A DNA stretch of 64,000 bases from Antedon bifida (Eukaryota; Echinodermata; Crinoidea; Comatulida; Antedonidae): assembly GCA_963402885.1 (NCBI GenBank), contig OY727098.1, positions 12,138,717-12,202,716 of the forward strand, given 5' to 3'. Positions 42,999-63,428 of this stretch are shown one piece after another. Position 1 is the first letter of the stretch. Every line of letters begins with the position of its first letter. The notes beneath the pieces were generated by a model. The model was not told the origin of the DNA. It saw only the letters and a program-made list of their open reading frames with translations, and did no database searches. The position numbers and the translations under genes are program-made.

Positions 42999-43009
42999 TG
43001 TTTAACATG
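42999..43009. other. Satellite orientation switch point
   Basis: The forward array breaks off inside a C/D monomer boundary after GTTTTTGTGTGAAA. A short TGTTTAACATG follows, and the array then continues as its reverse complement from GTGATTTTCGAAAAAACTTG. The stretch between the two orientations is only about 11 bp and matches neither side well. Confidence 0.85.
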
Positions 43010-46000
43010 GTGATTTTCGAAAAAACTTGTCAACATAAAAACACCAAAGTGCTTAGAATAGCTTCAAATCGCATTTGGAGACGTTTTAGACCATTTTGTG
43101 ATTTTCGAAAAAACTTGTTAACATAAAAACATCAAAGTGAACAGAATAGCTTTAAATCACATTTGGAGACGTTTTAGACCATTTTGTGATTTTCGAAAAA
43201 ACTTGTTAACATAAAAACACCAAAGTGATGAGAATAGCATCAAATCGAATTTGGAGACGCTTTAGACCATTTTGTGATTTTCGAAAAAACTTGTTAACAT
43301 AAAAACATCAAAGTGTGCAGAATAGCTTCAAATCGCATTTGGAGACGTTTTAGACCATTGTGTGATTTTCGAAAAAACTTGTCAACATAAAAACACCAAA
43401 GTGCTTAGAATAGCTTCAAATCGCATTTGGAGACGTTTTAGACCATTTTGTGATTTTCGAAAAAACTTGTCAACATAAAAACACCAAAGTGCTTAGAATA
43501 GCTTTAAATCGCATTTGGAGACGTTTTAGACCATTTTGTGATTTTCGAAAAAACTTGGTTACAGAAAAACATCAAAGTGCTTAAAATCTCATTAGAAACC
43601 GTTTTAGACCATTTTGAGCAATTTGATAAAACTTTTCACACAAAAACATCAAAGAGCACAAAATAGCTTAATATCGTATTTAAAAACGTTTTAGACCATT
43701 TTGAGCATTTCGACAAACAATTTTCACACAAAACATCAAAGTGTGCAGAATAGCTTCAAATCGCATTTGGAGACGTTTTAGACCATTTTGTGATTTTCGA
43801 AAAAACTTGTTAACATAAAAACACAAAAGTGCTTAGAATAGCTTCAAATCGCATTTGGAGACGTTTTAGACCATTTTGTGATTTTCGAAAAAACTTGGTT
43901 ACAGAAAAACATCAAAGTGCTTAAAATCTCATTAGAAACCGTTTTAGACCATTTTGAGCAATTCGATAAAACTTTTCACACAAAAACATCAAAGAGCACA
44001 AAATAGCTTAATATCGTATTTAAAATCGTTTTAGACCATTTTGAGCATTTCGATAAAAAATTTTCACAAAAAACATCAAAGTGTACAGAATAGCTTCAAA
44101 TCGCATTTGGAGACGTTTTAGACCATTTTGTGATTTTCGAAAAAAACTTGTTAACATAAAAACACCAAAGTGCTTAGAATAGCTTCAAATCGCATTTGGA
44201 GACGTTTTAAACCATTTTGTGATTTTCGAAAAAACTTGGTTACACAAAAACATCAAAGTGCTTAAAATCTCATTATAAACCGTTTTAGACCATTTTGAGC
44301 AATTCGATAAAACTTTTCACACAAAAACATCAAAGAGCACAAAATAGCTTAATGTCGTATTTAAAAACGTTTTAGACCATTTTGAGCATTTCGACAAAAA
44401 TTTTTCACACAAAACATCAAAGTGTACAGAATAGCTTCAAATCGCATTTGGAAACGTTTTAGACCATTTTGTGATTTTCGAAAAAACTTGTTAACATAAA
44501 AACACCAAAGTGCTTAGAATAGCTTCAAATCGCATTTGGAGACGTTTTAGACCATTTTGTGATTTTCGAAAAAACTTGGTTACACAAAAACATCAAAGTG
44601 CTTAAAATCTCATTATAAACCGTTTTAGACCATTTTGAGCAATTCGATAAAACTTTTCACACAAAAACATCAAAGAGCACAAAATAGCTTATTATCGTAT
44701 TTAAAAACGTTTTAGACCATTTTGTGATTTTCGAAAAAACTTGTTAACATAAAAACACCAAAGTGCTTAGAATAGCTTCAAATCTTATTTGGAGACGTTT
44801 TAGACTATTTTGTGATTTTCGAAAAAATTTGGTTACACAAAAACATCAAAGTGCTTAAAATCACATTATAAACCGTTTTAGACCATTTTGAGGATTTCGA
44901 TAAAACTTTTCTCACAAAAACATCAAAGTGCACAAAATAGCTTAATATCGTATTTAAAAACGTTTTAGACCATTTTTAGCATTTCGACAAAAATTTTTCA
45001 CACAAAACATCAAAGTGTACAGAATAGCTTCAAATCGCATTTGGAGACGTTTTAGACCATTGTGTGATTTTCGAAAAAACTTGTTAACATAAAAACACCA
45101 AAGTGCTAAGAATAATTGAAATCTCATTTAGAGACGTTATAGACCATTTTGTGATTTTCGAAAAAACTTGTCAACATAAAAACACCAAAGTGCTTAGAAT
45201 AGCTTTAAATCGCATTTGGAGACGTTTTAGACCATTTTGTGATTTTCGAAAAAACTTGGGTTACACAAAAACATCAAAGTGCTTAAAATCTCTTTAGAAA
45301 CCGTTTTAGACCATTTTGAAAATTGCGATAAAACTTTACACACAAAAACATGAAAGAGCACAAAATAGCTTAATATCGTATTTAAAAACGTTTTAGACCA
45401 TTTTGAGCATTTCGACAAAAATTTTTCACACAAAACATTTAAGTGTACAGAATAGTTTCAAATCGCATTTGGAGACGTTATAGACCATTGTGTGATTTTC
45501 TAAAAAACTTGTTAACATAAAAACACCAAAGTGCTAAGAATAACTTCAAATCTCATTTAGAGACGTTATAGACCATTTTGTAATTTTCGAAAAAACTTGT
45601 TAACATAAAAACACCAAAGTGCTTAGAATGGCTTCAAATCGCATTTGGAGACGTTTTAGACAATTTTGTGATTTTCCAAAAAACTTGTTAACATAAAAAC
45701 ATCAAAGTGTACAGAATAGCTTCAAATCGCATTTGGAGACGTTTTAGACCATTTTATGATTTTCGAAAAAACTTGTTAACATAAAAACACCAAAGTGCTT
45801 AGAATAGCTTCAAATCGCATTTGGAGACGTTTTAGACCATTTTGTGATTTTCGAAAAAATTTGGTTACACAAAAACATCAAAGTGCTTAAAATCACATTA
45901 GAAACCGTTTTAGACCATTTTGAGGATTTTGATAAAACTTTTCTCACAAAAACATCAAAGAGCACAAAATAGCTTAATATCGTATTTAAAAACGTTTTAG

Positions 46001-46668
46001 ACCATTTTGAGCATTTCGACAAAAAATTTTCACACAAAACATCAAAGTATACAGAATAGCTTCAAATCGCATTTGGAGACGTTTTAGACCATTGTGTGAT
46101 TTTCGAAAAAACTTGTTAACATAAAAACACCAAAGTGCTAAGAATAACTTCAAATCTCATTTAGAGACGTTATAGACCATTTTGTGATTTTCGAAAAAAC
46201 TTGTCAACATAAAAACACCAAAGTGCTTAGAATAGCTTCTAATCGCATTTGGAGACGTTTTAGACCATTTTGTGATTTTCGAAAAAACTTGGTTACACAA
46301 AAACATCAAAGTGCTTAAAATCTTATTAGAAACCGTTTTAGACCATTTTGAAAAAATGTTTCACACAAAACATCAAAGTGTGCAGAATAGCTTCAAATCG
46401 CATTTGGAGACGTTTTAGACCATTTTGTGATTTTCGAAAAAACTTGGTTACACAAAAACATCAAAGTGCTTAAAATCTTATTAGAAACCGTTTTAGACCA
46501 TTTTGAAAAAATTTTTCACACAAAACATCAAAGTGTGCAGAATAGCTTCAAATCGCATTTGGAGACGTTTTAGACCATTTTGTGATTTTCGAAAAAACTT
46601 GTTAACATAAAAACACCAAAGTGCTTAGAATAGCTTCAAATCGCATTTGGAGACGTTTTAGACCATTT
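43010..46668 (-). repeat. Inverted arm of the same satellite
   Basis: This is the same monomer family read on the opposite strand: the core appears as CGTTTTAGACCATT, and A monomers as GATTTTCGAAAAAACTTG. It is more heterogeneous than the left array, with variants such as GAGACGTTATAGACC (near 45133, 45476 and 46166), GAGACGCTTTAGACC (near 43254) and GAGGATTTCGATAAAAC (near 44890). It is interrupted at 46665-46668 by the 1.6-kb TIR element and resumes at 48276. Confidence 0.95.
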
Positions 46669-46702
46669 GTGACCCGATCTGGCAAAACCCTACTTTTGTC
46701 GG
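46669..46702 (+). repeat. Left terminal inverted repeat of the 1.6-kb element
   Basis: Begins GTGACCCGATCT and pairs with 48242-48275 with a few mismatches. It is preceded by the target-site copy ATTT at 46665-46668. Confidence 0.8.
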
Positions 46703-47134
46703 AAATATTCATTTTGTATTTTTTTATATATTTGGATTATTTGAATCATAAGCTTTGTAGTGGTGTTTATTTCATAAAAATTTAGTAAATATTTAAAAAG
46801 TTATTACATTTTAAAAACTTACAAATCATTCAATTAGTTTACGAAAAAATCGCGTTTGAAGTTTGCAATGAAATTCTTTTTGATACGCGCTGAAAACTCA
46901 CTCCGTAGCAACGCGGTATTTTGGTCTAAGGCACAATGACTTCATACCAGGAAGTGTGTGCGATATAATAGCAGCGTGCACATCATAGTCAATTTGACTG
47001 ATTTCAGACGCCGTTTTAACCTATTTAGTCACTCGAATTAACTATTTTGCACTATTGAAAAGCAGCATTATAACGTCAAGCTTATTTTAACTGGTTTCGG
47101 AGGTGTTTACGATATCAAAAGCGAAAAACCAAGC

Positions 47135-47570
47135 AGGCCTAGGCCTAGCTAGGCCTATTCAGATTTTCGCCGTCATCGCCCACCTACTGTCACTGATGCC
47201 ATGGGTGTTCATCAGGCCGTGTATGGCAGCGGTGCATCGACATTGGGGCTGGCGTTAGTAGTAAACTAGCCTAGACAAGTTTGGCGCCTTGCAGAGTCAC
47301 AGCTTGCTAGCTACTAACATTGTATTGACGATTTAATACATTTGTTTTTTTTATAACGTGGAAGATTCGCTGTAATGTTTGGACTCGAATCCAATGAGTT
47401 TAAAAAACATTTAAGATGAAAGGACTGGACAATAAATTAAATAAATAATTAAGAGCCGATTGGATATATAAAATGTATAAAGAAAACTATTTATTGACAA
47501 TAAAGCTAGGCCCAGTAGTAGTAGGCCTACAACCATAATAAAATTAAGGCCTAGGCCTAGGCCTAGCCCA
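47135..47570. repeat. GGCCTA-rich tracts inside the 1.6-kb element
   Basis: Two short low-complexity tracts of overlapping TAGGCC/GGCCTA units lie at 47135-47156 and 47546-47570, with an isolated palindromic GTAGGCCTAC at 47521-47530. Similar tracts occur in the RAG1-like transposon (near 57530, 57567 and 57725), so this is probably a genome-wide simple repeat rather than part of one element's identity. Confidence 0.6.
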
Positions 47571-48241
47571 AAAAAATATAGAAAATACAATTGAATTGAT
47601 GACGTGAATTGTTTTTGACTTGTCTATTTTACTATGGAATAAACAAATACAGGCTACAGCTATTGCAGAACACGCCGAACACTTTGAATATTAAAATCGT
47701 TTTTATTCCAATTAATACGACATGCTGTGTGTAAAATGAAAATAACCTCACAAAAATGTAAACAACTTTTTATTTCCGCGCGTAGAGCGTATAACATCTA
47801 GCGCGTTGACCAATAACGTTTGTTATTACGATGATGCGCCATAGCAACACACGCAGTTCGCTGTTCCAGAAACTTCGAAGAACCGAATTTTCTGAAATTA
47901 TGTCATAGTAAATCAACGTTTTCATTGGTTCCTTCTTTAAACTCCGCCCTAAAACTTCCATATTTGGAATGTCAAATGGATGAGCTTTATTTTGATGTGT
48001 GACCTTTCAACATTGTGCAGCGAACTGGCGATAAAAATGTCGTCAAACTCGGCAACATTCAACTGAATTTGAATACATGTTTTTAAAACTCTCTTTTTTC
48101 ATAATTTTAATTAAATTTCGGGAGTTTAAATCAGGTAGACGTATTCTTAAATAGTGAAATATTTCGAAAATGCAAAAACATGTAATCTGCCAGGGTAGTC
48201 GATTTGGACGTATTTTGACTGATTACGTGAATTTTGAATTG

Positions 48242-48275
48242 CCGACAAAGAGAGGGTTTTGCGAGATCGGGTCAC
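48242..48275 (-). repeat. Right terminal inverted repeat of the 1.6-kb element
   Basis: Ends AGATCGGGTCAC on the plus strand, the reverse complement of the left end. It is followed by the second ATTT at 48276-48279, after which the satellite monomer resumes in frame with the left side. Confidence 0.8.
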
Positions 48276-48761
48276 ATTTTGTGATTTTCGAAAAAACTTG
48301 GTTACACAAAAACATCAAAGTGCTTAAAATCTCATTAGAAACCGTTTTAGACCATTTTGAGCAATTCGATAAAACTTTTCACACAAAAACATCAAAGAGC
48401 ACAAAATAGCTTAATATCGTATTTAAAATCGTTTTAGACCATTTTGAGCATTTCGATAAAAAATTTTCACAAAAAACATCAAAGTGTACAGAATAGCTTC
48501 AAATCGCATTTGGAGACGTTTTAGACCATTTTGTGATTTTCGAAAAAAACTTGTTAACATAAAAACACCAAAGTGCTTAGAATAGCTTCAAATCGCATTT
48601 GGAGACGTTTTAAACCATTTTGTGGTTTTCGAAAAAACTTGGTTACACAAAAACATCAAAGTGCTTAAAATCTCATTATAAACCGTTTTAGACCATTTTG
48701 AGCAATTCGATAAAACTTTTCACACAAAAACATCAAAGAGCACAAAATAGCTTAATGTCGT
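48276..48761 (-). repeat. Inverted satellite, continuation
   Basis: The satellite resumes immediately after the TIR element with ATTTTGTGATTTTCG and continues for about six monomers in the inverted orientation. It stops at TTAATGTCGT, where the retrotransposon LTR begins. The matching uninterrupted monomer at about 44350 reads TTAATGTCGTATTTAAAAAC, which shows exactly where the insertion occurred. Confidence 0.92.
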
Positions 48762-50077
48762 TGTCACACAGCCGCAATTACGGCTCTTTCGGACATGTAA
48801 TTGCTGGTAACCAACGGTGAACAACGGTAAATAGCCACAACTGTACACATATAAATGTAAAAAGTAAAATTTAATAATAATCTTCGACAACCAATTCTTT
48901 CTTTTATAATTCAAACCCCCAAAAAAAAACCCACAAAAAAAACCCAACCAATTCTCAAACAATGATACAGTATTCTATTCCCCACACACTTTATGCAATT
49001 CCCCAAATTTCCCAATCCTTCCAAACAAAATATCAACAATCTTCTTATTTTTAAATAAATGCCCGAAACCCCCCCTTTCAAATACAATAATATCACAAGA
49101 TGGATAATTAAACAATAATAAATGTCCACAATATCGTTCCTTCTTGCCTTCTCTCCTACGCTGACACAAAACAAATTAGAAAGATAAAAGTTAAAACGAT
49201 TCTGCAAATAAACAACTCCCACGCCTCTGCTCCCGTTCTGCTTGTATTATCAATTATAATTCTTCCTATTTTCTGACATATAAATAAATCAAATATAAAG
49301 TTAAAATGTTTCTTGATGTCGTTCTGCCCTGCAATCCGCTCCCCGACCAATTATTTCTTTCTCCTTTTCCACGTAAAATAATATCAGTATCAATCCAGTT
49401 ACTCTTCAATATTTCCAAACAATTCTTTCCATGCAACAACTTCTGCTGTTTCCAACAGTTATTTCTTCCGTCAATTTACATACACAATTTCAATTAATCC
49501 TCAGTAATCTCAACAATTAACAGTTCTACATTTAAGTACAGCCTTATAGTATTACTTCCAACTCACAATTTATTAACTTCATGTATATCACTTTATTTCC
49601 TTTCTGCTTCAGCTCTATATCACCATAATTATCTCCAACTCACAATTTATTAACTTCATGTATATCTCTTTATTTCCTTTCTGCTTCAGCTCTATTTCAC
49701 CATAATTCAATTACTTCTTCTCCTGCACGTCTTAGTTTCTCATATCAATATTCACCTATCCCTTTCTGGCTTAACATAACATAGCCCTCCTTCTCTGTCT
49801 CCTCTCAATTTCCATCTACCTCAAAATTCCCTCAATTTTCCACATATCACCACCTTATCCTTCTCCACCAATCAGCAACTCACACACTAACTTAACTCTT
49901 ATACCTCTCCTCCAATCAGCAAACACCACACAATCCTTCTCTGCAACACAAAAACTCTGCTCCACTGGCTTCACACAATAGCTTCCTAAAACAAAAGAAA
50001 GGTTCAAATAGTGAAAACAAAAGGAAAAGTAAGAATGACTTGCAAAATATATACACAACTTTATGTCACTTGTGACA
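48762..50077 (-). repeat. 3' LTR (1316 bp)
   Basis: On the minus strand it starts TGTCACAAG at 50077 and ends GTGTGACA at 48762, giving the TG...CA ends and a 7-bp terminal inverted repeat expected of an LTR. Bases 48762-49181 match 63581-64000 at a constant offset of 14819 bp, with two substitutions noticed (near 49069 and 49100). A perfect TGTCAC-TT-GTGACA inverted repeat sits at 50064-50077. The remainder (about 49180-50060) is AT- and pyrimidine-rich; part of it, around 49556-49700, is an imperfect tandem repeat containing CTCACAATTTATTAACTTC. Short open frames here are not coding. Confidence 0.9.
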
Positions 50078-50090
50078 TTTACTCCCCTCT
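50078..50090 (-). other. Polypurine tract
   Basis: Immediately before the 3' LTR the minus strand reads AGAGGGGAGTAAA, then TGTCAC. This is the expected plus-strand primer for reverse transcription. Confidence 0.8.
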
Positions 50091-50137
50091 AAAAGAATAA
50101 TGTATCAACATTTTCTCCATACCGTGACGGGTCCTAT

Positions 50138-52534
50138 TTACACTCGACTTAAATAATCAGCTCCTACATTTTCACTGCCTTTAATCGCCTCTATTCGGAA
50201 CTTGTACGGTTGTAGAGCCAGGGCCCATCTCATAATTCGCCCATTGGACAATTTCGCTCTGTGCATAAACACAAGCGGCTGGTGATCAGTTTCCAACGTG
50301 AAGTTTCGTCCATATAAATAAGACTCAAATTTTCGTACACTCCATACAATGGCTAAGCATTCTTTTTCCATCACTGAATATGCTTTTTCTCGAGGAAGCA
50401 GTTTCTTGCTAGCGTACGCCACGGGAAACTTCACGTCACCATACTGCTGCATTAGAACCGCTCCCACTCCATATTCGGACGCATCTGTTCTCAAGATAAA
50501 ATCTTTGTTTAAATTAGGAAGGCATAAAATTGGAGTACTGTTTAATTTTTCCTTAAGTTTAACAAACGCACTTTCCTGGGCCTTCTCCCAACATATTCGG
50601 TTAGGTTCCCGATTCTTCGTTTTGTCGGTTAATGGACAAGCAATCACAGAGTAATTAGGAATGAACTTTCTATAGTAGTTGGTCATCCCAAGGAATGACC
50701 GGAGTTGTTTCTTTGTTTCTGGTTGTTTGGCTGACAAGATGCTTTGTATCTTCTCCACTCGAGGTTGAACATTTCCTTTCCCTACCACATGGCCAAGAAA
50801 CTCGATTGTTTCATAACCAATGAAACATTTGCTTGGTCGAGCAGTTAGATTGGCCCTGCGGAGACGTCCAAACAATTCAGACAAACATTTCATATGTTGA
50901 TCCCAAGAAGCTGTGTGAATTAGAATGTCATCAATATAATTAAGTGTATTATCCATTCCTTTGAGTAATTTTCTCATGATACGACTGAAAGTAGCTGGTG
51001 CATTGACTAAGCCGAACGGCATGACATTAAATTGAAACAAACCATCTGGTGTTAGAAAGGCTGTTAAAGGTTTTGACGCTTCATCCATGGGAACTTGCCA
51101 ATACCCTTTACTTAAATCTATCTTAGTAAAATAATGATCATGGGCCAACTTTGTGAACAGTTCCTCTTGGTCCGGAATCGGTTCGGCGTCAAAAACTGTA
51201 ACCTGATTAAGTTTTCGAAAGTCCACGCAGAATCGATTTGACCCATCCGGTTTCTTTACCAATACTATTGGAGAGGCAAACGGTGTCCCTGAAGGCTCCA
51301 CTACACCCAGATTTAACATCATATTTACCTCATCCTTAATGGTACCTCGCAACGCATGTGGAAGTGGATAGGGCTTGGAACGGATTGTATCATCAGTTTC
51401 CAGCTTGATTTCATGCTGCCCAAGTGTAGTCTTACCCGGTAAATCCGTCAGTACATCTTTGTAGTTTCCGATAAGTCGGTGCACCTCATGCTTTAGTGTA
51501 TCATCCAGGCTTTCGTTGATGTGGATGTCGGCTGTTGTTTCTTTTGCTAGTAGAGGGTGGAGCTGTAAAAGATTCTCATTCGATAGATGATAATTTTGGT
51601 TATTTGTAAATGTTTCATTAGGTTCGCATTCAATAACAGCGGTGCTAGCTAATTCAAGGATACCAGAAGGCTCGGATACCCCTAAGGCAGCACTAATGTC
51701 TGCGGTTCGCTCATAATACTTTTTCAAGAGATTGGCGTGAAATATTTTGAATTTCCCGTTAATGTCAATTTGGTAGTCTAGATACCCAAATTTCTTTACA
51801 ACCTTAAAAGGACCTTTCCATTGAAGCAATAGTTTGTTTTTGTCTGTGGGTAATAAAAGTAGTACCTTATCCCCAACCTCAAATTCCCGGGACTTACTCT
51901 TTTTGTCATAATATTGTTTGTACCTGACCTTAGATTTTTGTAGATTCTTCTGAGCCATCTGACAGGTTTCATGTAGTCGTTCCCGTAAATCCATAACGTA
52001 CTGGTAGGTGGTTTTTGTTTCTGGTGTTTCGATTTCTTCGGTCCACAATTCCCTTAGGATGGACATGGGTCCTCGTACGGTACGGCCATATAACAGTTCA
52101 AAAGGAGAAAACCCTAAACTTTCCTGTGAAGATTCCCTAACCGCAAAAAGTAGTGGGTCAATGTAACGATCCCAATCAGTAGGCCTTTCTGCACACATAC
52201 GTTTCAGCATTTGTTTGAGTGTTCCATTGAACCGTTCGACCAAACCATTACAAGCTGGGTGATATGGAGATGTCATTACCTGACGTATAGACAACAACTT
52301 ACTAACTTGCCTCATGACTTCAGATGTAAATTGTGATCCCCTATCGGTAAGCATTTCTTTCGGGATACCAAGTCTAGAGAAAACACCAACCAAGGCCTCA
52401 GCAACCCGTTCAGCTTCAATATTTGGTAGAGGCACTGCCTCTGGATAACGAGTAGCAAAATCTATTATTGTGAGTATATAACGATTACGACCTTTAGACA
52501 TGGGGAAAATGGGACCAACTATATCAACGGCAAT
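50138..52534 (-). CDS. pol: Integrase core-reverse transcriptase-RNase H (3' half of interrupted Gag-Pol)
   Basis: This is the continuation of the gag-pol frame beyond the DNA-transposon insertion; it has no start codon of its own. Numbering residues with 1 as the codon just right of the element (52537-52535): the integrase catalytic triad is D5 (VDIVGP), D65 (TDRGSQF) and E101 (NGLVERFNG). A GPY/F-like module with WKGPF lies near 240-257. Reverse transcriptase spans about 385-560, with D474 in KIDLSKGYWQ and the YIDD box at 534-537. RNase H spans about 680-799, with D685, E726, D751 and D794. The frame ends at TAA (50138-50140). No internal stop or frameshift is seen. The order integrase then reverse transcriptase marks the Gmr1-like group. 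The gene is inactivated in this copy only by the insertion at its 5' side. Confidence 0.92.
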   Translation of the reverse strand: MAVDIVGPIFPMSKGRNRYILTIIDFATRYPEAVPLPNIEAERVAEALVGVFSRLGIPKEMLTDRGSQFTSEVMRQVSKLLSIRQVMTSPYHPACNGLVERFNGTLKQMLKRMCAERPTDWDRYIDPLLFAVRESSQESLGFSPFELLYGRTVRGPMSILRELWTEEIETPETKTTYQYVMDLRERLHETCQMAQKNLQKSKVRYKQYYDKKSKSREFEVGDKVLLLLPTDKNKLLLQWKGPFKVVKKFGYLDYQIDINGKFKIFHANLLKKYYERTADISAALGVSEPSGILELASTAVIECEPNETFTNNQNYHLSNENLLQLHPLLAKETTADIHINESLDDTLKHEVHRLIGNYKDVLTDLPGKTTLGQHEIKLETDDTIRSKPYPLPHALRGTIKDEVNMMLNLGVVEPSGTPFASPIVLVKKPDGSNRFCVDFRKLNQVTVFDAEPIPDQEELFTKLAHDHYFTKIDLSKGYWQVPMDEASKPLTAFLTPDGLFQFNVMPFGLVNAPATFSRIMRKLLKGMDNTLNYIDDILIHTASWDQHMKCLSELFGRLRRANLTARPSKCFIGYETIEFLGHVVGKGNVQPRVEKIQSILSAKQPETKKQLRSFLGMTNYYRKFIPNYSVIACPLTDKTKNREPNRICWEKAQESAFVKLKEKLNSTPILCLPNLNKDFILRTDASEYGVGAVLMQQYGDVKFPVAYASKKLLPREKAYSVMEKECLAIVWSVRKFESYLYGRNFTLETDHQPLVFMHRAKLSNGRIMRWALALQPYKFRIEAIKGSENVGADYLSRV
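52532..52534. other. Target-site duplication AAT, left copy
   Basis: AAT immediately precedes CACGGCA. The same trinucleotide follows the right end at 61016-61018. In the retrotransposon it is a single isoleucine codon of integrase on the minus strand. Confidence 0.88.
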
Positions 52535-52571
52535 CACGGCAGTTTCAAACGCGATATCCGAGACACAAAGT
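52535..52571 (+). repeat. Left end: TIR with RSS-like heptamer and nonamer-like block, 21-bp spacing
   Basis: CACGGCA (52535-52541) is followed by 21 bp and then ACACAAAGT (52563-52571). The first 12 bp match the right end perfectly. The block CGAGACACAAAGTG matches CGAGACAAAAAGTG of the right end at 13 of 14 positions, but lies 9 bp further from the terminus. Confidence 0.85.
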
Positions 52572-53196
52572 GTTTACAACGCGCTTTTGATTGATACGCC
52601 TGGCGCGAGCCTTGAGCAGCTATTTATAGCCCACCAACATCGAGCGAAATGTTTACATTAGCTAGCTATAAACAGAAAGTGTATTATACGAAGTAAATAC
52701 AGTCTTACAATGACCAATTAATAAAGTTTTCCTCGAATCTTACAGTGTTTGCTTTATTATTGTATTTTGTATTAGGGAAAATGGTCTAGGATTAAAAAAT
52801 ATTATTAAAAAAGCGAAATTTTAACGATGTTTGCGATAGTTTCAAAAGCCGAAAATATACATAAATAGCGCCCTCACGGCGAAAGTTTATCGTCGCGGTA
52901 AGTTCAAGCTTTTGATCGTCTGATAGCAAATCTCTGCAATTTTTTCGAGCAACACCGTTAATTCCAAGTGAAAGCGGAGACTTTATTCTTTATTTAGCTC
53001 AAAATTCAGGCTGACGTCTACTTTCAAATTGATTTGAGCTAAATTTGAAATTGACTTATTTCTGTTCAAAATTCCAGTGATTTTATAGGTAAAAATAGGC
53101 CTAGAGCAAAGTTAATTATATATTATTTTAAAGAATTGTGTATTGGTTTTGCATTGACTGTATGTGGTATGTTACTGTTATTTATTGTCTTGTGAA
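52572..53196 (+). other. 5' flank of the transposase gene inside the transposon
   Basis: About 625 bp between the left end and the first ATG. It is AT-rich and has no open frame of note. It must contain the promoter and 5' untranslated region, but I cannot point to a specific TATA box. The frame of exon 1 is open for 11 codons above the ATG, starting at a GTG (53164), without another ATG. Confidence 0.6.
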
Positions 53197-56100
53197 ATGG
53201 AGTACCATACATATGCATTGAGTAATTTATGTCGTGTATGTGGTGTCAAGTTAACACGAAATCAGCGAAAATTTGAAGTAACTAAACTAAAAGATAGCGT
53301 CCTGACATTTTTAAATATCGATTTAACTCATGAAAACAAAGATGTACATCCACCATTCATTTGCAAGAACTGTCAATTTTCAAGCTATAACAAGAAGGTT
53401 AGCACAACTCAAAGGTACATCTGGAGACAACACACACAACAATCATGTTTCACATGTTATTTATTATCAGAACAGTCAAAACCAGGTAAAAGACTAAAAC
53501 AAATAAAACTCAACACATTATTTTCTGAAACAGAATGCGACATTATTCCATCAAAATTTACAATCAATGACAAAATCAATTCTGAACCTTTCATTTGCCA
53601 AATATGCAACTCGATTTTGTCTTTCAACAGTCTTGAGTCAAACTGTTCACATCACTATTGTTCTAGTTGTCTGTATAATTTGTTTAGTACCCTCCATGTT
53701 AACGTATGTTCATGTCTTGTGTGCGCAAAGCCAATGCACATGCTGGAATTTAAACCCGCCTCCCAAATTGTAATAGAGTCTCTAAAATCGCTAGAATTAC
53801 AATGCTCGTGCAATAAGTTCATAAAATACTCTGAACATCAGAGACATATTTGTGAACACCAGACAACTAAAGAAGTGGTGTATCATAATGTTTCAAAAGC
53901 TGTATCGGTGTTAGAGAAATCACTAGAAGATAGTCATGTCTCCCAAACAATACAAACGTTTGCAGAAAAAGTTGTTTACAATCAACTTAAGAAAAGTAAG
54001 GAAATGCTGATTGCAACAAATGGTCGGGTGAGTACTTTAAAACAAATTCTGTAATTATCATATTGCATGTTATAAAAAGTAGATTAATATTATTATGACA
54101 GAATTGTTAGCATAAAACATATAAATACAATTCTTATCTACAGCCAGCAAAGATTGCTATCATACCAAACACCAAAGTCCCAAGTGATAAGGCCAGTTCT
54201 CGAACTGTTTCAAGACGAGCAAATAGCATAAGCAGCATCATAAAATCAGTTGGCAATAGTGAGGCTGGTGATTTCCATCAGAAAGTGTACTCAGCCAAAC
54301 ATATGAGTCAAGCGGTCTTAAAAGCAGCCAACATAGCATCAACTTCGTCTATAGATATAGATAAGGCTCTGGCAATGGTGTCAGACTGCCACCTGGCATG
54401 GAACCAGCTACGAAAGCTAAGAAGGTAAACAAACAATTATGTGATTAAATAAAACCATGCATGAATACAAGCATTTTAGACACAGTCAAGTATGTCTAGT
54501 AATAAAGTGAGACTACATTATTAATCCTTTTTATGTACTAGATATGTGGAGAAAGGGAAAATACCATCAGAGAAAAGGATGCGGCAGCGGCAAAATGATC
54601 TCATTGGGGATTATTTTGAATCCACAATGGAAATGCTATGTTTTAGGTCTGAGACGTCCTCAGACGGGATAGAATTAAGATCAACGCCTACTGTCAGAAT
54701 GAAGAACATTAAAAAAGTTGTATTTTCATATCTTGATGAACACTCAAGGTACGCTGAAGTTAAATTTAAATATGTGCTTACAAAGTGTAGAACTTACTTT
54801 TTAGGACTTTACTTTTGTTCATATGGATTTTGCTATGGAAATAAAAGTTAAAAGAAATTAATTATAAACTGAATTAATATTTACTATTTTTTTATTTTTT
54901 TACAGACTGAACAACCTATCTCCCAATAATAACGAGATTTGGATAAAGTTTGGCGGGGATAAGGGAGGTGGAAGTACCAAATTTGAGGTACAGATTTGTA
55001 GCCTCGCCAAACCAAATTCAATTAACAACATCATCGTCATACTAATATTTGATGCCCCTGACATGATGTTTAATATTAACCGGACTCTTCCGGAAGTGGC
55101 CCACCAAGTTGTTGCTTTGAACGGGGAAAAATGGCGGTAAGAATACAACTAGTATATCAACTTAACAATTATGTGGATGCGTATATAAGTAATAAAATAA
55201 AAATATATGTATAATTTCTTTCAGCAATTACACACTGAGAGTTTTCTGTTTTGGGGACTATGAGTATTTAACAAAACTCTATGGATTAAATGGACCAAAT
55301 GGTAAACTATTAAATTATTTTATCATCATTTAATTTATACAAAATCTTTCTAAGCCAATTTTATTTATACTGTATTACTGCATATTTTAGCATTTTTAAA
55401 CATTGTGAAAAAATTTGAATACTTTTAGCTCGATACTGCTGTCTCTTTTGTGAAAAACCAAAAGCAGAAATGCAATTAAAGGCACCACCCGCCAAACAGC
55501 GCTCATTGGCTTCAATCAGAGCCAACTACAGAATGTTTATGGAAGATGGCGGAATTGAAAGCCGATCTAAGGATGTTTCCATGAGCGTTGTTAATAATCC
55601 CTTAGTATCAATTGAGGTAGATCATGTAAGTACATCAGTTTTGTTTTTAATTATCTTTATATTAGAGAAACAAATGTACTTACTTCATTATATGGCACTG
55701 TTGGTATTAAAATTTATATCTTTTAGGTGTCTGTTCCTAGCCTGCACTTGTCATTGGGCATATTCAAGAAGCTCTTTGATATGCTAGAGACGGAGGCGCA
55801 CAGCATAGATTGCCTCATATATTCCCTAAGGAAAAATGGAGAACTTGATGACACTTCTGAATCAAAGTTTGATAAAATAATTCAACATCAGATCCAAACA
55901 CAAATTGATATCAAAGAAAAGATTGAAGAAAAGAAATTAAAGTTGACTGAGATGGAGGATGCAATGCCATTAATCTATCTTAAAGGAAGTGTTGATGGTA
56001 GCATAATTACCAATGTGGGAAAGATAGTCAAATTGAGAGAAGAGATTGAGTCACTGGTAAGTTACTCAAACAATAAATGACATAGATGCGTCTTGCCAGA

Positions 56101-57091
56101 CACATACTGTAAAGACAAAACTTGTATTATATTTTATTTTACAGACAAAATGCATGGAAAATGGGCTTCCATTTGGAACGGGTCCAATTGTCACATCACT
56201 GGAACGTGTGCTACAAAAAAATCGCATCCAACGGCAAGCCTATCATGGTAAATCATTTATTGGTAACCATGTTCATAAATGTTGTCAGGTAAATTAACTA
56301 TTCTTTTAATTGATATTGTTTCAACTGTTAATTATTAAAATTGTAGTTTTTAAAATGTATATTTGTTTTTAATAGGACCATGTTAGGAATGAACTAGTGA
56401 ATGCTCCACTACATGAAATGAAAATTCAAGAAGCTGAGATTCCTATCGGAAAAATTCAGCTAATTGACAAAAGAGTAAAAGAATTGGTCACCAAGTACGA
56501 TGCACTCCTTTCAAAATTTTCTAGGGTTCACAACAACTTGAATCATTCAAAACCTGTCACAGATGTTGATATTCAAGAAAATGGTAATGTAATTATGCTT
56601 ACCTTTCAAGGTATTCCGTAGACATGCCATTGTTTCTTTTCCTACAACACACTGTAACTGTTTCTTTTCTCTTCTACAAAAAAAAATTCAGATGAAGCCA
56701 TAAAAGACTTTATGGAGGAATATCGAAAAACCAACAAAAGTATATCTCCAAAATTACATATGCTCGAGGAACATGTCATTCCCCAATTAAAGGCTTGGAG
56801 ATTTGGTCTGGGACTGGTTAGCGAGCAAGGTGGGGAGTCTATTCACGCCGCGCTTAATAAAAGGAAAAGAACAGTTGCTGGGATGCATGACAGACTTGGA
56901 CAGTTAACATCCATGATGCGGTCACATGCAATTACCACTCAGCCATGCATAATAGAAGAAATAGTTGAACCCAAAAGAAGAAAAATTGGTAACAATTTAC
57001 ACTTTATTGATTACACTATTTGTGCATTTTAGCTCCCTGCTCACCAAAAATTAAATAAACCTGTTTATATTTTTCAGAAAAAGAAGAATAA
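53197..57091 (+). CDS. RAG1-like transposase, 11 exons, 938 residues
   Basis: Exons: 53197-54027, 54144-54424, 54542-54748, 54906-55136, 55225-55301, 55429-55625, 55727-56056, 56145-56288, 56376-56583, 56692-56988, 57078-57091. All introns are GT-AG, phases agree and no stop interrupts the frame. N-terminus: cysteine pairs C12/C15, C56/C59 and C84/C87, with HPPFIC before the second pair, then a C3HC4 RING (C134, C137, C150, H152, C155, C158, C173, C176) and a C2H2-like finger (about 203-221), in the same order as in RAG1. Core: D458 (GGDKGGGS), KPNS near 480, D528 (FGDYEYL), C547/C550, H858/H863 and E884 (SEQGGES). D528 to C547 is 19 residues, as between RAG1 D708 and C727; the HxxxxH spacing also equals RAG1 H937/H942. 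Residues about 645-700 look like a coiled-coil insertion. Expected role: cutting at the element ends and transposition in the nucleus. The exon model is inferred from sequence only. Confidence 0.85.
57054..57059 (+). promoter_or_regulatory. AATAAA in intron 10 (possible early poly(A) signal)
   Basis: AATAAA lies in the last intron, about 18 bp before exon 11. Reading through the exon 10 donor gives a stop at 57030-57032 just upstream, so use of this signal would yield a protein with a slightly different C-terminus after residue 934. Confidence 0.4.
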
Positions 57092-58240
57092 AGTACACGA
57101 CAAAGAATACGAAATAAAAGAAAATATAGGCTTACTGATAAATCTGACGGAGTGCCATCTTCTTCTTTATTATGTATTCTCTTATGAACCACACTTGCAT
57201 CAATAAAGTAGTCGTACTTGTTTGTGTTGGTGGTATTTTTGGAACCTGTAATACAATTTTTGAATTATAAATATTTATCATCAATATTTAAAAAAATGGT
57301 GGACTAGCGATTGAAATACATGATGAAATATTATATTATTATTAGGACTATACTGTCAAAATTAAAATCAAAATTTTATTTTTTATTCTACAAATGCAAT
57401 GCTGTTGCTGCCATAGTTTAGTAATATTCAAGCCATAGGAAGATAGACTATGATATTTTCACATTTTCTACTGTAGAATAACTTAGGCCCTCATGAAAGC
57501 TAGTTAGTAAGTATACCTATTCTCCTAGGCCTACCTATGTCTTGATGGTACCATATTAAAAAATTAGGCCTAGCCTAGTCTAGATAGAGCTGTTACTAAG
57601 CCTGGCCCTGCTGATTTCCCCTCTTAACGACATATACTTGGGCTAGGCCTACTAAGAGTATATTATTCTAGGCCAATATTTATTTTTCGTGGCTTAAACC
57701 TAGTACGTAGTGACAAACCTTTGTTAGGCCTAGGCCTTTAGCAGCACACCCACGTGTGCAAAACAGGCAAATGGGCCCCGACTTTCTGTGCATATAATTA
57801 TTAAACTGGATTAGACGTCAGCGAGATTTTTTAAATATTGTTTATCAAGTTTTTGAATTTTCACATCGACTAGGCGCCGATGTTTATGTAAATTGCAAAC
57901 AAAAAATATAACCTCACCATTACCCTGTAATTAAACTGCTATTTTTTACTGTTTTTTGTCGCAAAATAGACGTAAGATTTCAATACTCATATCTCGGGAA
58001 GTCTTGAGAAACGGAGTGACCGCTGGCTTCGAATATCAATTACATGCCTTCTTCTTCGAATATAACATGAATATTCATTAAATTTTCAATTATAACACTG
58101 TCTATTGGTCAGTTTATTCCCTCTCTTTTACCAGGGTATTAAAAATAGTCTTCCGGGTATTTAAACTAGCGCCCTCTATAACATAAAATAAGAAAAAGCG
58201 AGCATCGAAACTATAGAGGGCTCACCACTTTTTGTCTCGC
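57092..58240 (+). other. 3' flank of transposase gene, non-coding
   Basis: About 1.15 kb without a meaningful open frame on either strand. It holds the candidate poly(A) signal, several GGCCTA-type tracts (near 57530, 57567 and 57725) and AT-rich sequence. There is no second gene and, in particular, no kelch-repeat (RAG2-like) frame. Confidence 0.75.
57202..57207 (+). promoter_or_regulatory. AATAAA downstream of the stop codon (candidate poly(A) signal)
   Basis: A canonical AATAAA 111 bp after the TAA stop of exon 11, followed within 40 bp by a GT-rich stretch (TTGTTTGTGTTGGTGG). This is the best candidate 3' end of the transposase mRNA. It is duplicated at 59963-59968. Confidence 0.6.
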
Positions 58241-59852
58241 AGGCACCACCCGCCAAACAGCGCTCATTGGCTTCAATCAGAGCCAACTACAGAATGTTTA
58301 TGGAAGATGGCGGAATTGAAAGCCGATCTAAGGATGTTTCCATGAGCGTTGTTAATAATCCCTTAGTATCAATTGAGGTAGATCATGTAAGTACATCAGT
58401 TTTGTTTTTAATTATCTTTATATTAGAGAAACAAATGTACTTACTTCATTATATGGCACGGTTGGTATTAAAATTTATATCTTTTAGGTGTCTGTTCCTA
58501 GCCTGCACTTGTCATTGGGCATATTCAAGAAGCTCTTTGATATGCTAGAGACGGAGGCGCACAGCATAGATTGCCTCATATATTCACTAAGGAAAAATGG
58601 AGAACTTGATGACACTTCTGAATCAAAGTTTGATAAAATAATTCAACATCAGATCCAAACACAAATTGATATCAAAGAAAAGATTGAAGAAAAGAAATTA
58701 AAGTTGACTGAGATGGAGGATGCAATGCCATTAATCTATCTTAAAGGAAGTGTTGATGGTAGCATAATTACCAATGTGGGAAAGATAGTCAAATTGAGAG
58801 AAGAGATTGAGTCACTGGTAAGTTACTCAAACAATAAATGACATAGATGCGTCTTGCCAGACACATACTGTAAAGACAAAACTTGTATTATATTTTATTT
58901 TACAGACAAAATGCATGGAAAATGGGCTTCCATTTGGAACGGGTCCAATTGTCACATCACTGGAACGTGTGCTACAAAAAAATCGCATCCAACGGCAAGC
59001 CTATCATGGTAAATCATTTATTGGTAACCATGTTCATAAATGTTGTCAGGTAAATTAACTATTCTTTTAATTGATATTGTTTCAACTGTTAATTATTAAA
59101 ATTGTAGTTTTTAAAATGTATATTTGTTTTTAATAGGACCATGTTAGGAATGAACTAGTGAATGCTCCACTACATGAAATGAAAATTCAAGAAGCTGAGA
59201 TTCCTATCGGAAAAATTCAGCTAATTGACAAAAGAGTAAAAGAATTGGTCACCAAGTACGATGCACTCCTTTCAAAATTTTCTAGGGTTCACAACAACTT
59301 GAATCATTCAAAACCTGTCACAGATGTTGATATTCAAGAAAATGGTAATGTAATTATGCTTACCTTACAAGGTATTCCGTAGACATGCCATTGTTTCTTT
59401 TCCTACAACACACTGTAACTGTTTCTTTTCTCTTCTACAAAAAAAAATTCAGATGAAGCCATAAAAGACTTTATGGAGGAATATCGAAAAACCAACAAAA
59501 GTATATCTCCAAAATTACATATGCTCGAGGAACATGTCATTCCCCAATTAAAGGCTTGGAGATTTGGTCTGGGACTGGTTAGCGAGCAAGGTGGGGAGTC
59601 TATTCACGCCGCGCTTAATAAAAGGAAAAGAACAGTTGCTGGGATGCATGACAGACTTGGACAGTTAACATCCATGATGCGGTCACATGCAATTACCACT
59701 CAGCCATGCATAATAGAAGAAATAGTTGAACCCAAAAGAAGAAAAATTGGTAACAATTTACACTTTATTGATTACACTATTTGTGCATTTTAGCTCCCTG
59801 CTCACCAAAAATTAAATAAACCTGTTTATATTTTTCAGAAAAAGAAGAATAA
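58241..59852 (+). pseudogene. Duplicated 3' exons of the RAG1-like transposase (truncated copy)
   Basis: Contains the 3' part of exon 6 (58241-58386) and complete copies of exons 7 (58488-58817), 8 (58906-59049), 9 (59137-59344), 10 (59453-59749) and 11 (59839-59852), with the same splice sites and no stop. It carries the HxxxxH and final glutamate of the DDE core. It lacks exons 1-5 and the CxxC part of exon 6, so it cannot encode a complete enzyme. It lies downstream of the normal stop and poly(A) signal and would be used only by read-through transcription with alternative splicing. Confidence 0.8.
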
Positions 59853-60987
59853 AGTACACGACAAAGAATACGAAATAAAAGAAAATATAGGCTTACTGAT
59901 AAATCTGACGGAGTGCCATCTTCTTCTTTATTATGTATTCTCTTATGAACCACACTTGCATCAATAAAGTAGTCGTACTTGTTTGTGTTGGTGGTATTTT
60001 TGGAACCTGTAATACAATTTTTGAATTATAAATATTTATCATCAATATTTAAAAAAATGGTGGACTAGCGATTGAAATACATGATGAAATATTATATTAT
60101 TATTAGGACTATACTGTCAAAATTAAAATCAAAATTTTATTTTTTATTCTACAAATGCAATGCTGTTGCTGCCATAGTTTAGTAATATTCAAGCCATAGG
60201 AAGATAGACTATGATATTTTCACATTTTCTACTGTAGAATAACTTAGGCCCTCATGAAAGCTAGTTAGTAAGTATACCTATTCTCCTAGGCCTACCTATG
60301 TCTTGATGGTACCATATTAAAAAATTAGGCCTAGCCTAGTCTAGATAGAGCTGTTACTAAGCCTGGCCCTGCTGATTTCCCCTCTTAACGACATATACTT
60401 GGGCTAGGCCTACTAAGAGTATATTATTCTAGGCCAATATTTATTTTTCGTGGCTTAAACCTAGTACGTAGTGACAAACCTTTGTTAGGCCTAGGCCTTT
60501 AGCAGCACACCCACGTGTGCAAAACAGGCAAATGGGCCCCGACTTTCTGTGTATATAATTATTAAACTGGATTAGACGTCAGCGAGATTTTTTAAATATT
60601 GTTTATCAAGTTTTTGAATTTTCACATCGACTAGGCGCCGATGTTTATGTAAATTGCAAAAAAAAAATATAACCTTACCATTACCCTGTAATTAAACTGC
60701 TATTTTTTACTGTTTTTTGTCGCAAAATAGACGTAAGATTTCAATACTCATATCTCGGGAAGTCTTGAGAAACGGAGTGACCGCTGGCTTCGAATATCAA
60801 TTACATGCCTTCTTCTTCGAATATAACATGAATATTCATTAAATTTTCAATTATAACACTGTCTATTGGTCAGTTTATTCCCTCTCTTTTACCAGGGTAT
60901 TAAAAATAGTCTTCCGGGTATTTAAACTAGCGCCCTCTATAACATAAAATAAGAAAAAGCGAGCATCGAAACTATAGAGGGCTCACC
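59853..60987 (+). other. Duplicated 3' flank, non-coding
   Basis: Second copy of 57092-58226. It differs at a few bases (for example GTGCATAT versus GTGTATAT, and AACCTCACC versus AACCTTACC). No coding potential was seen. Confidence 0.75.
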
Positions 60988-63421
60988 ACTTTTTGTCTCG
61001 CTGGAAACTGCCGTGAATCCGTTCAAACGGCACCTCGATCAAAGGCATGCTTCCTAGAGGCACTTTCGTAACTCTACCTTTTTGTACAGTTCTCTGACAA
61101 ATGTCACAGGATCGACAATATCGAGTAATATCTGCAGTTACCCCAGGCCACCAAAATGTTGTCAACACTTTATCTGTCGTCTTTTTTACCCCTTGGTGTC
61201 CTCCTAATAAGGTTTCATGGGCTTGGCGCATTACCTGGCGTCGATAGTCAGCTGGCACTACTAGTTGGGTAAACTTATCCCCGTGTTCAATATTAGGAGA
61301 GGAAAATTGCCTATATAATAGGTCTTTATGATAAATAAACCTAGCCTCGGCTTGTTTGTTACTCACAGTTGTAGTTTGTTTCTCTGCAAGATCCTTGAAT
61401 TTTGCAAGGCTGATATCTTGTTGCTGGGCGGTTTTCATAATTCCCGCTGTGATGATTTGCTTGTGTATTTCTGTAGTTTTAAGTGTTCTGAATGGTTTAT
61501 CCATAGTGTTAGCTTGAGACCGGGTAACAACAGAACATCCTTGAAGATTTCGCTCTGTCCATGTGGGATCTGGATTTCCTGGTGCTCGTACTCCTGCAAT
61601 ATTACCTAATATCAAGTCATAAATAGGGTTATTCATACATAGTGCATACGTCTTTCCTGAAAAAAATGGAGTATTAACATGTATTAATGCAACCGGTAAG
61701 TTGCGGACCGTGCCATCAATCAGCACACAGGTTTTCTCCTTACCAGTAAGTTGTTCGGCTGATACAAGATCTTTCTTCACAACCACCCCACTACAGCCAC
61801 TGTCACGAAGAACAGAGACGCAGCGTGACCCAACACAACCTGTATAAACGGGCATTTTACTAATTGAATTATTTAGAGCCGCTGTCATAATTGGAAGACA
61901 GTGCCCACATTGAAGAGTGACCTTATCACCATCATTATTGATACAACATTGATTTAAAGACTCTGACATTTTCGTAACCATACTGGCCCCCACATCGGGA
62001 ATTTCTTCTTTGGCTTTACATTCGTGTTGGTTTGTACATTTCTGGCAATCAGACTCTGTTTGTGGTGAAGTAGACAACCCAGCGCAACTGTTGGCGTCCT
62101 GTCTACAATTTCTGGCAATATGTCCTGTTTTTAAGCATCGGTAACATTTTGGAGGAGAGTTTGGCTTATGCATAGTTGAGGCTCTGCAATTTCTAGCTAG
62201 GTGACCTACACGATGACATATAAAACAAGTTGGACTACGGAAACTAGAAGGGCTTTGTGATGAGGATGTACTGGGAACATTATTAGAGGAGAGTTGAGGA
62301 GAATTTGGCTCTTTTTGTTTAAACTCTATTGGTTTACCAAATAATCCCCCACGAGCTTCCAAATATTGCTCCGCAATTTCAGCCATCGCTTGTATCGTTT
62401 TCGGTTGACGTTCCCTTAGGAACAGAGCTAGGTCCTTCCCACACCCATCGGTAAACTGCTCTCGCAGCAATAAATCTTTTAACCCCTGAAAGGTTTTTTC
62501 CCCCTCTGCTAGGTCAATCCACCTATCAAGATAATTGCTTATCCTCGCAGCAACTTGCGGGCCGCTTTCTCCGTATTCGGGCTTAGCTGTTCGTAACTTA
62601 TGTCGAAATCCATCGGCGGTTAACTGAAACCGTTTTAGAAGAGCCAATTTCAACAGTTTGTAATCGTTAGCTTCAGCTGACGACAACCTGGAATAAACCT
62701 CGAGAGCCTTCCCAGTTAGTAGGGCACTTAAGTTAACCGGCCACTCAATTTCTTTCCACTCCTGACTAGTCGCATACCGTTCAAACCTTTTCAGATAGGC
62801 ATCTAGGTCATCTGTTCGATCATGGAAAGGGGGTAATTTAGGTTTACTGGCCTTAACCCGTGACTCAGGATTGGGTAATACTCTACCACCCGGCCGTGCC
62901 CGATTCTTTTCTTGTTCTAATTGGATTTCTAACCTTCGCATTTCTATAAGATAGGCCTGATTCTCAGCTTCTTTCGCCCTTTCGTTTTCTCTCTCTTTTT
63001 CTTCACTCGCTCTTTTTCTCTCTGCTTCGTCCCTCTCTAGTACCTCTCTTCTCTCTCTCTCTTCCTTCTCTAGTGCCTCTCTTCTCTCTCTCTCTTCCTT
63101 CTCTAGTGCCTCTCTTCTCTCTCTCTCTTCCTTCTCTAGTGCCTCTCTTCTCTCTCTCTCTTCCTTCTCTAGTGCCTCTCTTCTCTCTCTCTCTTCCCTG
63201 TCTCTGTTTCGCTCCATTTCTTCTCTCTCCCTGTCCCTGTTTCGCTGTTTTTCTTCTCTCTCCCTGTTTCTCTCTTCTCTCTCTAGTGCTCTCTCTTCTC
63301 TCTCTCGTGCTCTCTCTTCTCTCTCTCTGGCAGCTTCCTCTCTCTTTTCCACAAACTCGCTTAATTCCACTCCATCTAACCCCAACGCTTTTCCTGCGTC
63401 AACAATTTTAGTGAGATCCAT
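60983..63421 (-). CDS. gag-pol: Gag-protease-integrase N-terminus (5' half of interrupted Gag-Pol)
   Basis: Open from ATG at 63421. Residues 25-175 are an extremely Glu/Arg-rich predicted coiled coil that includes four 12-residue tandem repeats (about 78-127). Residues 195-357 are a capsid whose second half (about 253-357, with LLLREQF and FLRERQP) resembles the SCAN domain. Two CX2CX4HX4C zinc knuckles lie at 399-412 and 426-439. A retropepsin-like protease has its DSG at 540-542 and an LILGN strand near 603. The integrase zinc domain has H735, H742, C772 and C775. Element-derived sequence ends at residue 802, whose codon is the AAT/ATT target site (61016-61018). The last ten residues before the stop are read from the inserted transposon's end. 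The rest of the polyprotein resumes in the same frame at 52534. Confidence 0.88.
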   Translation of the reverse strand: MDLTKIVDAGKALGLDGVELSEFVEKREEAAREREERAREREERALEREERNREREEKQRNRDREREEMERNRDREERERREALEKEERERREALEKEERERREALEKEERERREALEKEERERREVLERDEAERKRASEEKERENERAKEAENQAYLIEMRRLEIQLEQEKNRARPGGRVLPNPESRVKASKPKLPPFHDRTDDLDAYLKRFERYATSQEWKEIEWPVNLSALLTGKALEVYSRLSSAEANDYKLLKLALLKRFQLTADGFRHKLRTAKPEYGESGPQVAARISNYLDRWIDLAEGEKTFQGLKDLLLREQFTDGCGKDLALFLRERQPKTIQAMAEIAEQYLEARGGLFGKPIEFKQKEPNSPQLSSNNVPSTSSSQSPSSFRSPTCFICHRVGHLARNCRASTMHKPNSPPKCYRCLKTGHIARNCRQDANSCAGLSTSPQTESDCQKCTNQHECKAKEEIPDVGASMVTKMSESLNQCCINNDGDKVTLQCGHCLPIMTAALNNSISKMPVYTGCVGSRCVSVLRDSGCSGVVVKKDLVSAEQLTGKEKTCVLIDGTVRNLPVALIHVNTPFFSGKTYALCMNNPIYDLILGNIAGVRAPGNPDPTWTERNLQGCSVVTRSQANTMDKPFRTLKTTEIHKQIITAGIMKTAQQQDISLAKFKDLAEKQTTTVSNKQAEARFIYHKDLLYRQFSSPNIEHGDKFTQLVVPADYRRQVMRQAHETLLGGHQGVKKTTDKVLTTFWWPGVTADITRYCRSCDICQRTVQKGRVTKVPLGSMPLIEVPFERIHGSFQRDKKW
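60988..61015 (-). repeat. Right end: TIR with RSS-like heptamer and nonamer-like block, 12-bp spacing
   Basis: On the minus strand CACGGCA (61015-61009) is followed by 12 bp and then ACAAAAAGT (60996-60988). The nonamer-like block agrees with the vertebrate RSS nonamer ACAAAAACC at seven of nine positions. The heptamer shares the critical CAC with CACAGTG. Confidence 0.85.
61016..61018. other. Target-site duplication AAT, right copy
   Basis: AAT directly after the terminal GTG of the transposon, matching 52532-52534. Confidence 0.88.
63038..63190 (-). repeat. 36-bp tandem repeats in gag
   Basis: Four nearly identical 36-bp units, visible on the plus strand as repeated CTCTAGTGCCTCTCTTC, encode 12-residue repeats of the type ERREALEKEERE. 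They lengthen the coiled coil and are a likely site of length variation between element copies. Confidence 0.85.
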
Positions 63422-63428
63422 TTCTTAA

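Follow-up and report, generated by a model that had tools for sequence, protein, structure and literature searches.

The 64,000-nt stretch of Antedon bifida contig OY727098.1 analyzed here (the window) contains a whole copy of a Chapaev-type transposon that encodes a transposase with similarity to RAG1, and whose two ends, each built of two blocks separated by spacers of unequal length, resemble at the sequence level the 12/23 recombination signal sequences (RSSs) of vertebrates. These unequal, two-block ends, which were overlooked in the first-pass annotation of this DNA, are the most interesting part of the element. The features of the locus, in window coordinates, with terminal inverted repeat abbreviated TIR, target site duplication TSD, open reading frame ORF, and reverse transcriptase RT, are as follows.

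50138..52534, minus strand: host Ty3/gypsy-type ORF, 3' part, with integrase core followed by RT and RNase H
52532..52534, no strand: left TSD, AAT, read from the flanks
52535..61015, plus strand: Chapaev-type transposon, whole copy with an internal tandem duplication
52535..52546, plus strand: 12-bp TIR CACGGCAGTTTC, 5' end
52563..52571, plus strand: nonamer-like block ACACAAAGT of the 5' end, 21 bp past the first 7 bases
55480..58240, plus strand: tandem duplication, first unit, from within exon 6 up to 14 bp before the element end
58241..61001, plus strand: tandem duplication, second unit, with 6 differences
60988..60996, minus strand: nonamer-like block ACAAAAAGT of the 3' end, 12 bp past the first 7 bases
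61004..61015, minus strand: 12-bp TIR CACGGCAGTTTC, 3' end
61016..61018, no strand: right TSD, AAT, read from the flanks
61016..63424, minus strand: host Ty3/gypsy-type ORF, 5' part, with zinc knuckle and integrase zinc-binding domain

The borders proposed in the first-pass annotation (52535 and 61015) proved exact, and the perfect 12-bp TIR, the 3-bp AAT duplication, and the interrupted host integrase gene that it described are all present. The element interrupts a Ty3/gypsy-type integrase whose zinc-binding domain (PF17921) and catalytic core (PF00665) fall on opposite sides of the insertion, and a single ATT copy between the flanks restores the minus-strand frame of this integrase, as read by eye. 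In the host Ty3/gypsy-type element (50138-63424, minus strand), integrase precedes RT and RNase H, an order that we take to be that of the Gmr1-like elements of deuterostomes.

A protein search yielded 105 exon-level matches, and 49 of 500 first-look candidates were scored, so that all counts of copies are lower bounds. Twenty stretches (loci, designated by L-numbers) were fetched for comparison, and a profile search with A1 contributed two new proteins. Many of the matches, not all, sit mid-contig, perhaps in pericentromeric DNA. Protein identity over aligned positions between family A, to which the window copy belongs, and families B, D, F, and C was 39%, 44%, 43%, and 41%, respectively, and that between B and D was 61%. 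Each end was scored as its first seven bases, a spacer in bp, and a nine-base block, giving the following.

Family A: 5' CACGGCA-21-ACACAAAGT; 3' CACGGCA-12-ACAAAAAGT
Family B: 5' CACGGTA-22-ACAAAAAGC; 3' CACGGTA-12-ACAAAAAGC
Family D: 5' CACGCTG-22-ACAAAAAGT; 3' CACGGTG-12-ACAAAAAGT
Family F: 3' CACGGTG-12-ACAAAAAGT
Family A2: 3' CACAGCA-11-ACAAAAAGT
Family C: 5' CACCACT-12-AAAATAAGC; 3' CACCACT-23-TAACTAAGT

A CAC block followed at unequal distances by an A-rich, nonamer-like block was found in A, B, and D, three of the four families for which both ends are known, the fourth, C, being weak. The exact word ACAAAAAG is present at all four ends of families B and D, with spacers of 22 and 12. 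An exact pair of 12 and 23 does not occur in A, B, and D, where the spacers are 12 and 21-22. The TIR seemingly ends after 12 bp because the two ends space the second shared block differently.

The ends of families A and B had been set by TIR and TSD, and that of A2 by TIR alone, before the second block was noticed, while the 3' end of F and both ends of D were found through the motif. A scan for CAC-N4-N(9-26)-ACAAAAAG over 21 sequences (the 20 loci and the window) proposed a 5' end of D in L043 and the 3' end of F in L034. The former was subsequently supported by two further copies that are identical for 2,697 bp from precisely that CAC and are preceded by different DNA; this check had not been designed for D, as L048 and L049 were fetched as presumed members of another family and proved to be D. 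At the 3' end of D, in the copy on contig C14, the spacer is 12 and TAAT stands on both sides. The scan of this sequence gave two extra matches, one with a spacer of 23 that overlaps the same block and one with a spacer of 8 elsewhere, and only the site with a spacer of 12 has the TIR and TSD. An initial candidate for this end (L053) was wrong, owing to internal deletion of the copy. The 3' end of F has received no such additional support. As for background, exact ACAAAAAG occurred at a spacer of 6-30 in 11 of 3,275 distinct other CAC sites, 7 of which were copies of or overlaps with ends by inspection, leaving 4. A third block, CTATAGAGGGC or its reverse complement with at most 2 mismatches, starts at 34-35 in the 3' ends of A, B, and F and at 45 in the 5' ends of B and D; judging by these positions, the long end looks as if it were a short end with ~10 bp inserted before the second block.

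The gene occupies the places assigned to it in the first-pass annotation, with 11 exons over 53197-57091, GT-AG boundaries at 10 of 10 introns, and an open frame of 938 aa plus stop. All exons are on the plus strand; NBD denotes the nonamer-binding domain of RAG1.

53197..54027, plus strand: exon 1, RAG1-type zinc (Chapa) domain and RING finger; the GRP motif begins at its end (G276 R277)
54144..54424, plus strand: exon 2, P278 at its start; the GRP motif, at the place of the RAG1 NBD, spans the exon 1/2 junction
54542..54748, plus strand: exon 3
54906..55136, plus strand: exon 4, D458 (GGDKGG), putative first catalytic Asp
55225..55301, plus strand: exon 5, D528 (FGDYE), invariant, putative second catalytic Asp
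55429..55625, plus strand: exon 6, C(2)C motif C547/C550
55727..56056, plus strand: exon 7, LH motif L614 H615
56145..56288, plus strand: exon 8
56376..56583, plus strand: exon 9
56692..56988, plus strand: exon 10, H(4)H motif H858/H863; putative catalytic Glu, E880 or E884 (SEQGGES)
57078..57091, plus strand: exon 11, including the stop codon

The transposase domain PF06918 (DUF1280) was matched above the Pfam cut-off (E 6.9e-18) and was found in 15 of 17 alignment members, and the RAG1 core family is absent among the Pfam matches listed for the 938-aa protein. Profile similarity to RAG1 extends along most of RAG1's length, the best structural matches are RAG1/Transib, and RAG1-like N-terminal and core domains are both present. 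The DDE, C(2)C, LH, and H(4)H motifs can be recognized, although we infer which acidic residues are catalytic. No RAG2-like ORF was seen in the element among ORFs of at least 150 aa, a survey in which multi-exon RAG2L was not sought; the one ORF of this size wholly inside the element is exon 1. An Antedon mediterranea protein (P0001, 555 aa) is 99% identical over the aligned part (59% of the query). Scans for relatives gave 15 pattern matches in viral contigs and 20 in genome contigs, none confirmed, and thus identified no relative there.

On these sequence features, the element is a RAG1-related DNA transposon of the superfamily Chapaev, and not of RAG1/ProtoRAG or Transib, because it combines PF06918, CAC..GTG termini, the C(2)C, LH, and H(4)H motifs, and TSDs of 3-4 bp. 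Both of the terminal features that define Chapaev, 5'-CAC..GTG-3' termini and a TSD of 3-4 bp, were found (3 bp in the window and 4 bp in seven other insertions). The first-pass annotation had called the element RAG1-like and had suggested placing the protein by profile searches. This label stands insofar as the transposon is RAG1-related, carries a RAG1-type N-terminus, and shows profile similarity to RAG1; as to the superfamily, it is refined to Chapaev. We regard a RAGL/ProtoRAG-type or Transib element as highly improbable, since the similarity along RAG1 and the structural matches that would favor it are set against a match to PF06918 with no RAG1 family among those listed, TSDs that are 4 bp (seven) or 3 bp (one) and never 5 bp, and the lack of a RAG2-like ORF in the survey above. 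A Mirage/CACTA placement was rejected, as PF06918 indicates Chapaev. Chapaev3, a subgroup described as having a 3-bp TWA TSD between A and T (PMC4079192), was rejected as well, given the AAT of the window and the seven 4-bp TSDs. The first-pass statement that complete copies with a RAG1-type N-terminus are rarely described overstates their rarity, as zinc/RING N-termini (Chapa and RING) in Chapaev are already stated in PMC4411706, which cites Kapitonov & Jurka 2007.

Other copies in the genome, for which the first-pass annotation had advised a search, are near-identical, and independent copies on contig C12 reproduce the borders. One of these (L028, 5,718 bp) has the same 11 exons open, its coding sequence differing by 4 bases and 3 residues, and the other (L029, 5,731 bp) is frameshifted by 8 additional bases in exon 1. 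L030, on C11, is not an independent copy but the window insertion again, repeated by a segmental duplication 101,679 bp away. Within this duplication, window positions 51035-61034 differ from L030 at 1 position in 10,000 bp, and further left (window 41096-51034 versus L039) identity is 97%. Family B is represented by two 5,834-bp copies (L044 1945-7778 on C8 and L045 1911-7744 on C12) that are 100% identical and stand at different sites with different 4-bp TSDs, which indicates from their sequences that this family moved very recently. A 1,461-bp non-autonomous derivative of family A (L034 1501-2961 and L037 3053-4513) is one insertion in a C8/C1 segmental duplication, the family C copy (L042 930-7168) is 6,239 bp long with TSD ATAA and TIR CACCACTGTTTCA, and the family D copies L048 (from 488 onward, C14) and L049 (C16) are identical and internally deleted.

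Over eight independent insertions with both flanks read, TSD length was 4 bp in seven (L028 ATGG, L029 GATG, L034 AATA, L044 CACG, L045 AAAT, L042 ATAA, and the C14 copy TAAT), 3 bp in the window copy, and 5 bp in none. L030 and L037 were excluded as repeats of counted insertions, and L031 and L033 because only one end was available. L028 and L045 are inserted in an 88-bp satellite of the type that fills most of the window, with 48 and 26 satellite core matches in their flanks; there were none in the flanks of L029 and L044. In the comparison of empty sites, likewise advised earlier, monomers of the window satellite nearly match the L028 site (91 windows at ≤3 mismatches in 36 bp) and the L045 site (278 at ≤4), but none matched the former at ≤1 mismatch and one matched the latter at ≤2. 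The satellite, which also has 340- and 428-bp periods, lies in window positions 1-46672, and its listed unit changes strand near 43,003.

The first-pass annotation had also described the window copy as apparently intact. Its reading frame is intact, but it contains a 2,761-bp head-to-tail repeat that the annotation overlooked and that doubles the gene from within exon 6 through exon 11 together with the 3' region, the first unit without the final 14 bp of the element end. Because the duplication begins within exon 6 and ends 14 bp before the terminus, the first gene copy remains complete, and the half-gene that follows is carried as a passenger. Mis-assembly, with a false tandem duplication and a false nearby copy, might account for this arrangement, as the duplication is missing from both full C12 copies and, among the copies fetched, occurs only in the two on C11, which are near-identical to each other. 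However, the two units differ at 6 positions, and the independent C12 copies reproduce the element and its borders, so that we consider such an artifact improbable.

Taken together, it is probable that this is a cut-and-paste Chapaev transposon whose 938-aa transposase of RAG1 architecture derives from one 11-exon gene and whose unequal ends act in a manner like the 12/23 rule. This reading builds on the zinc and RING domains, GRP at the place of the NBD, the RAG1-like DDE core, CAC..GTG termini, mostly 4-bp TSDs, and near-identical copies, all observed in sequences or models. The transposase core would, as is known for the family, recognize CAC and cut, and the NBD-like GRP region, by analogy with RAG, would contact the A-rich block. 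One long-spacer (21-22) 5' end would be paired with one short-spacer (12) 3' end and both would be cut, after which the excised element would be joined to a staggered target. The spacing difference of one helical turn may bias pairing toward one 5' end and one 3' end, again by analogy with RAG.

It is also conceivable, if rather unlikely, that this is an ordinary Chapaev in which the second block is no more than a subterminal repeat bound by the transposase, and the spacers differ by 9-10 bp through an inherited accident of one clade with no role in pairing. Subterminal repeats are frequent in DNA transposons, and the fairly close relationship of B and D makes families A, B, and D only partly independent. 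Several observations weigh against a 12/23-like design, and some of them fit such an accident: the third block is irregular (absent in the 5' end of A, at 26 in the 3' end of A2, at 51 in that of D, and at 85 in that of C); family C, with both ends fixed by its TSD, lacks a clear nonamer (at most 6/8, at spacer 12, in the 5' end and 4/8, at 23, in the 3' end); and in the short derivative in L034 the 3' spacer is 16 and the 5' block degenerate. Read generously, family C may be 12/23 with reversed polarity, which we do not count as support. Furthermore, outside the TIR, the two ends of family A share no exact word longer than 7 bp, a length attained by 12% of random pairs; only one end each is available for F and A2, that of F having been located by the motif itself; no such end occurs in the stretch upstream of the family E gene (L050), and the 5' ends of F and A2 and both ends of E were searched for and not found; and the NBD homology of the GRP region depends on a single profile alignment. 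On the other hand, two observations speak against an accident of one clade: the 5'/3' polarity of the spacer classes, which is kept across A, B, and D despite the 39-44% identity of A to B and D and differing spacer sequences, and the ~10-bp shift of the third block between short and long ends.

Published Chapaev elements with Chapa and RING share with the present one the PF06918 core, CAC..GTG termini, 3-4 bp TSDs, and the N-terminus; the available text of PMC4411706 and PMC4079192 does not describe two-block 21-22/12 ends that include an A-rich block, and the host here is a crinoid. With vertebrate RAG1 and its RSSs, the likeness extends to domain order along most of RAG1, fold, the CAC first block, the A-rich second block, and a short spacer of exactly 12, as in the 12-RSS, whereas the long spacer is 21-22 rather than 23, the block ends in AG(T/C) rather than ACC, the TSD is 3-4 rather than 5 bp, and no RAG2 partner was seen. 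ProtoRAG and other RAGL elements likewise have a RAG1-like transposase, and unequal bipartite TIRs are described for ProtoRAG (27/31; PMC8289069), AanRAGL (4/13; PMC9435367), and an oyster RAGL (PMC8355894); counted from the end of the first block, as for AanRAGL, family A is 12/3, near the 13/4 of that element (PMC9435367). Unlike the element here, RAGL encode RAG2L and have 5-bp TSDs, the second block of ProtoRAG (GCCATCTTG) is not A-rich, and its ends are said to be unlike RSSs (PMC8289069). Since invertebrate RAGL have been argued to be insensitive to asymmetry (PMC7204232), a pairing rule here is a matter for test and not for assumption. Transib resembles the present element in its CAC termini, in RSS-like unequal ends in some families, and in GRP at the place of the NBD (PMC9435367), with 12/23 asymmetry reported for some members (PMC8355894) and asymmetry for subgroup I (PMC9435367), but has a 5-bp TSD and a different branch of transposase without the RAG1 N-terminal region (PMC8355894). 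N-RAG-TP of Aplysia, likened here by description only, also carries RAG1 N-terminal-like sequence in a transposon, but is described as that part only (PMC8355894). A limited search of open-access text found no report of RSS-like ends in Chapaev. Thus, within the literature covered, the zinc/RING N-terminus was already known, and the RSS-like, two-block, unequal ends of Chapaev appear to be new.

The origin of the 12/23 rule is an open question on which these ends bear, and 12/23 asymmetry is described as known, apart from V(D)J recombination, only in some Transibs (PMC8355894). A Chapaev element with RAG1-wide architecture, no RAG2 partner among the ORFs surveyed, 12/22 ends, and an A-rich second block would allow a direct test of whether a RAG1-like enzyme obeys a 12/23-like rule, and a pairing assay is practical because a copy with an open frame (L028) exists. 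It is possible, although we propose this only tentatively, that the RSS design (CAC, A-rich nonamer, a spacer of 12 and one that is a helical turn longer) and the RAG1 zinc/RING N-terminus predate the RAG1-RAG2 partnership, go back to an ancestor shared by Chapaev, Transib, and RAG, and have been kept more faithfully in an echinoderm Chapaev than in ProtoRAG.

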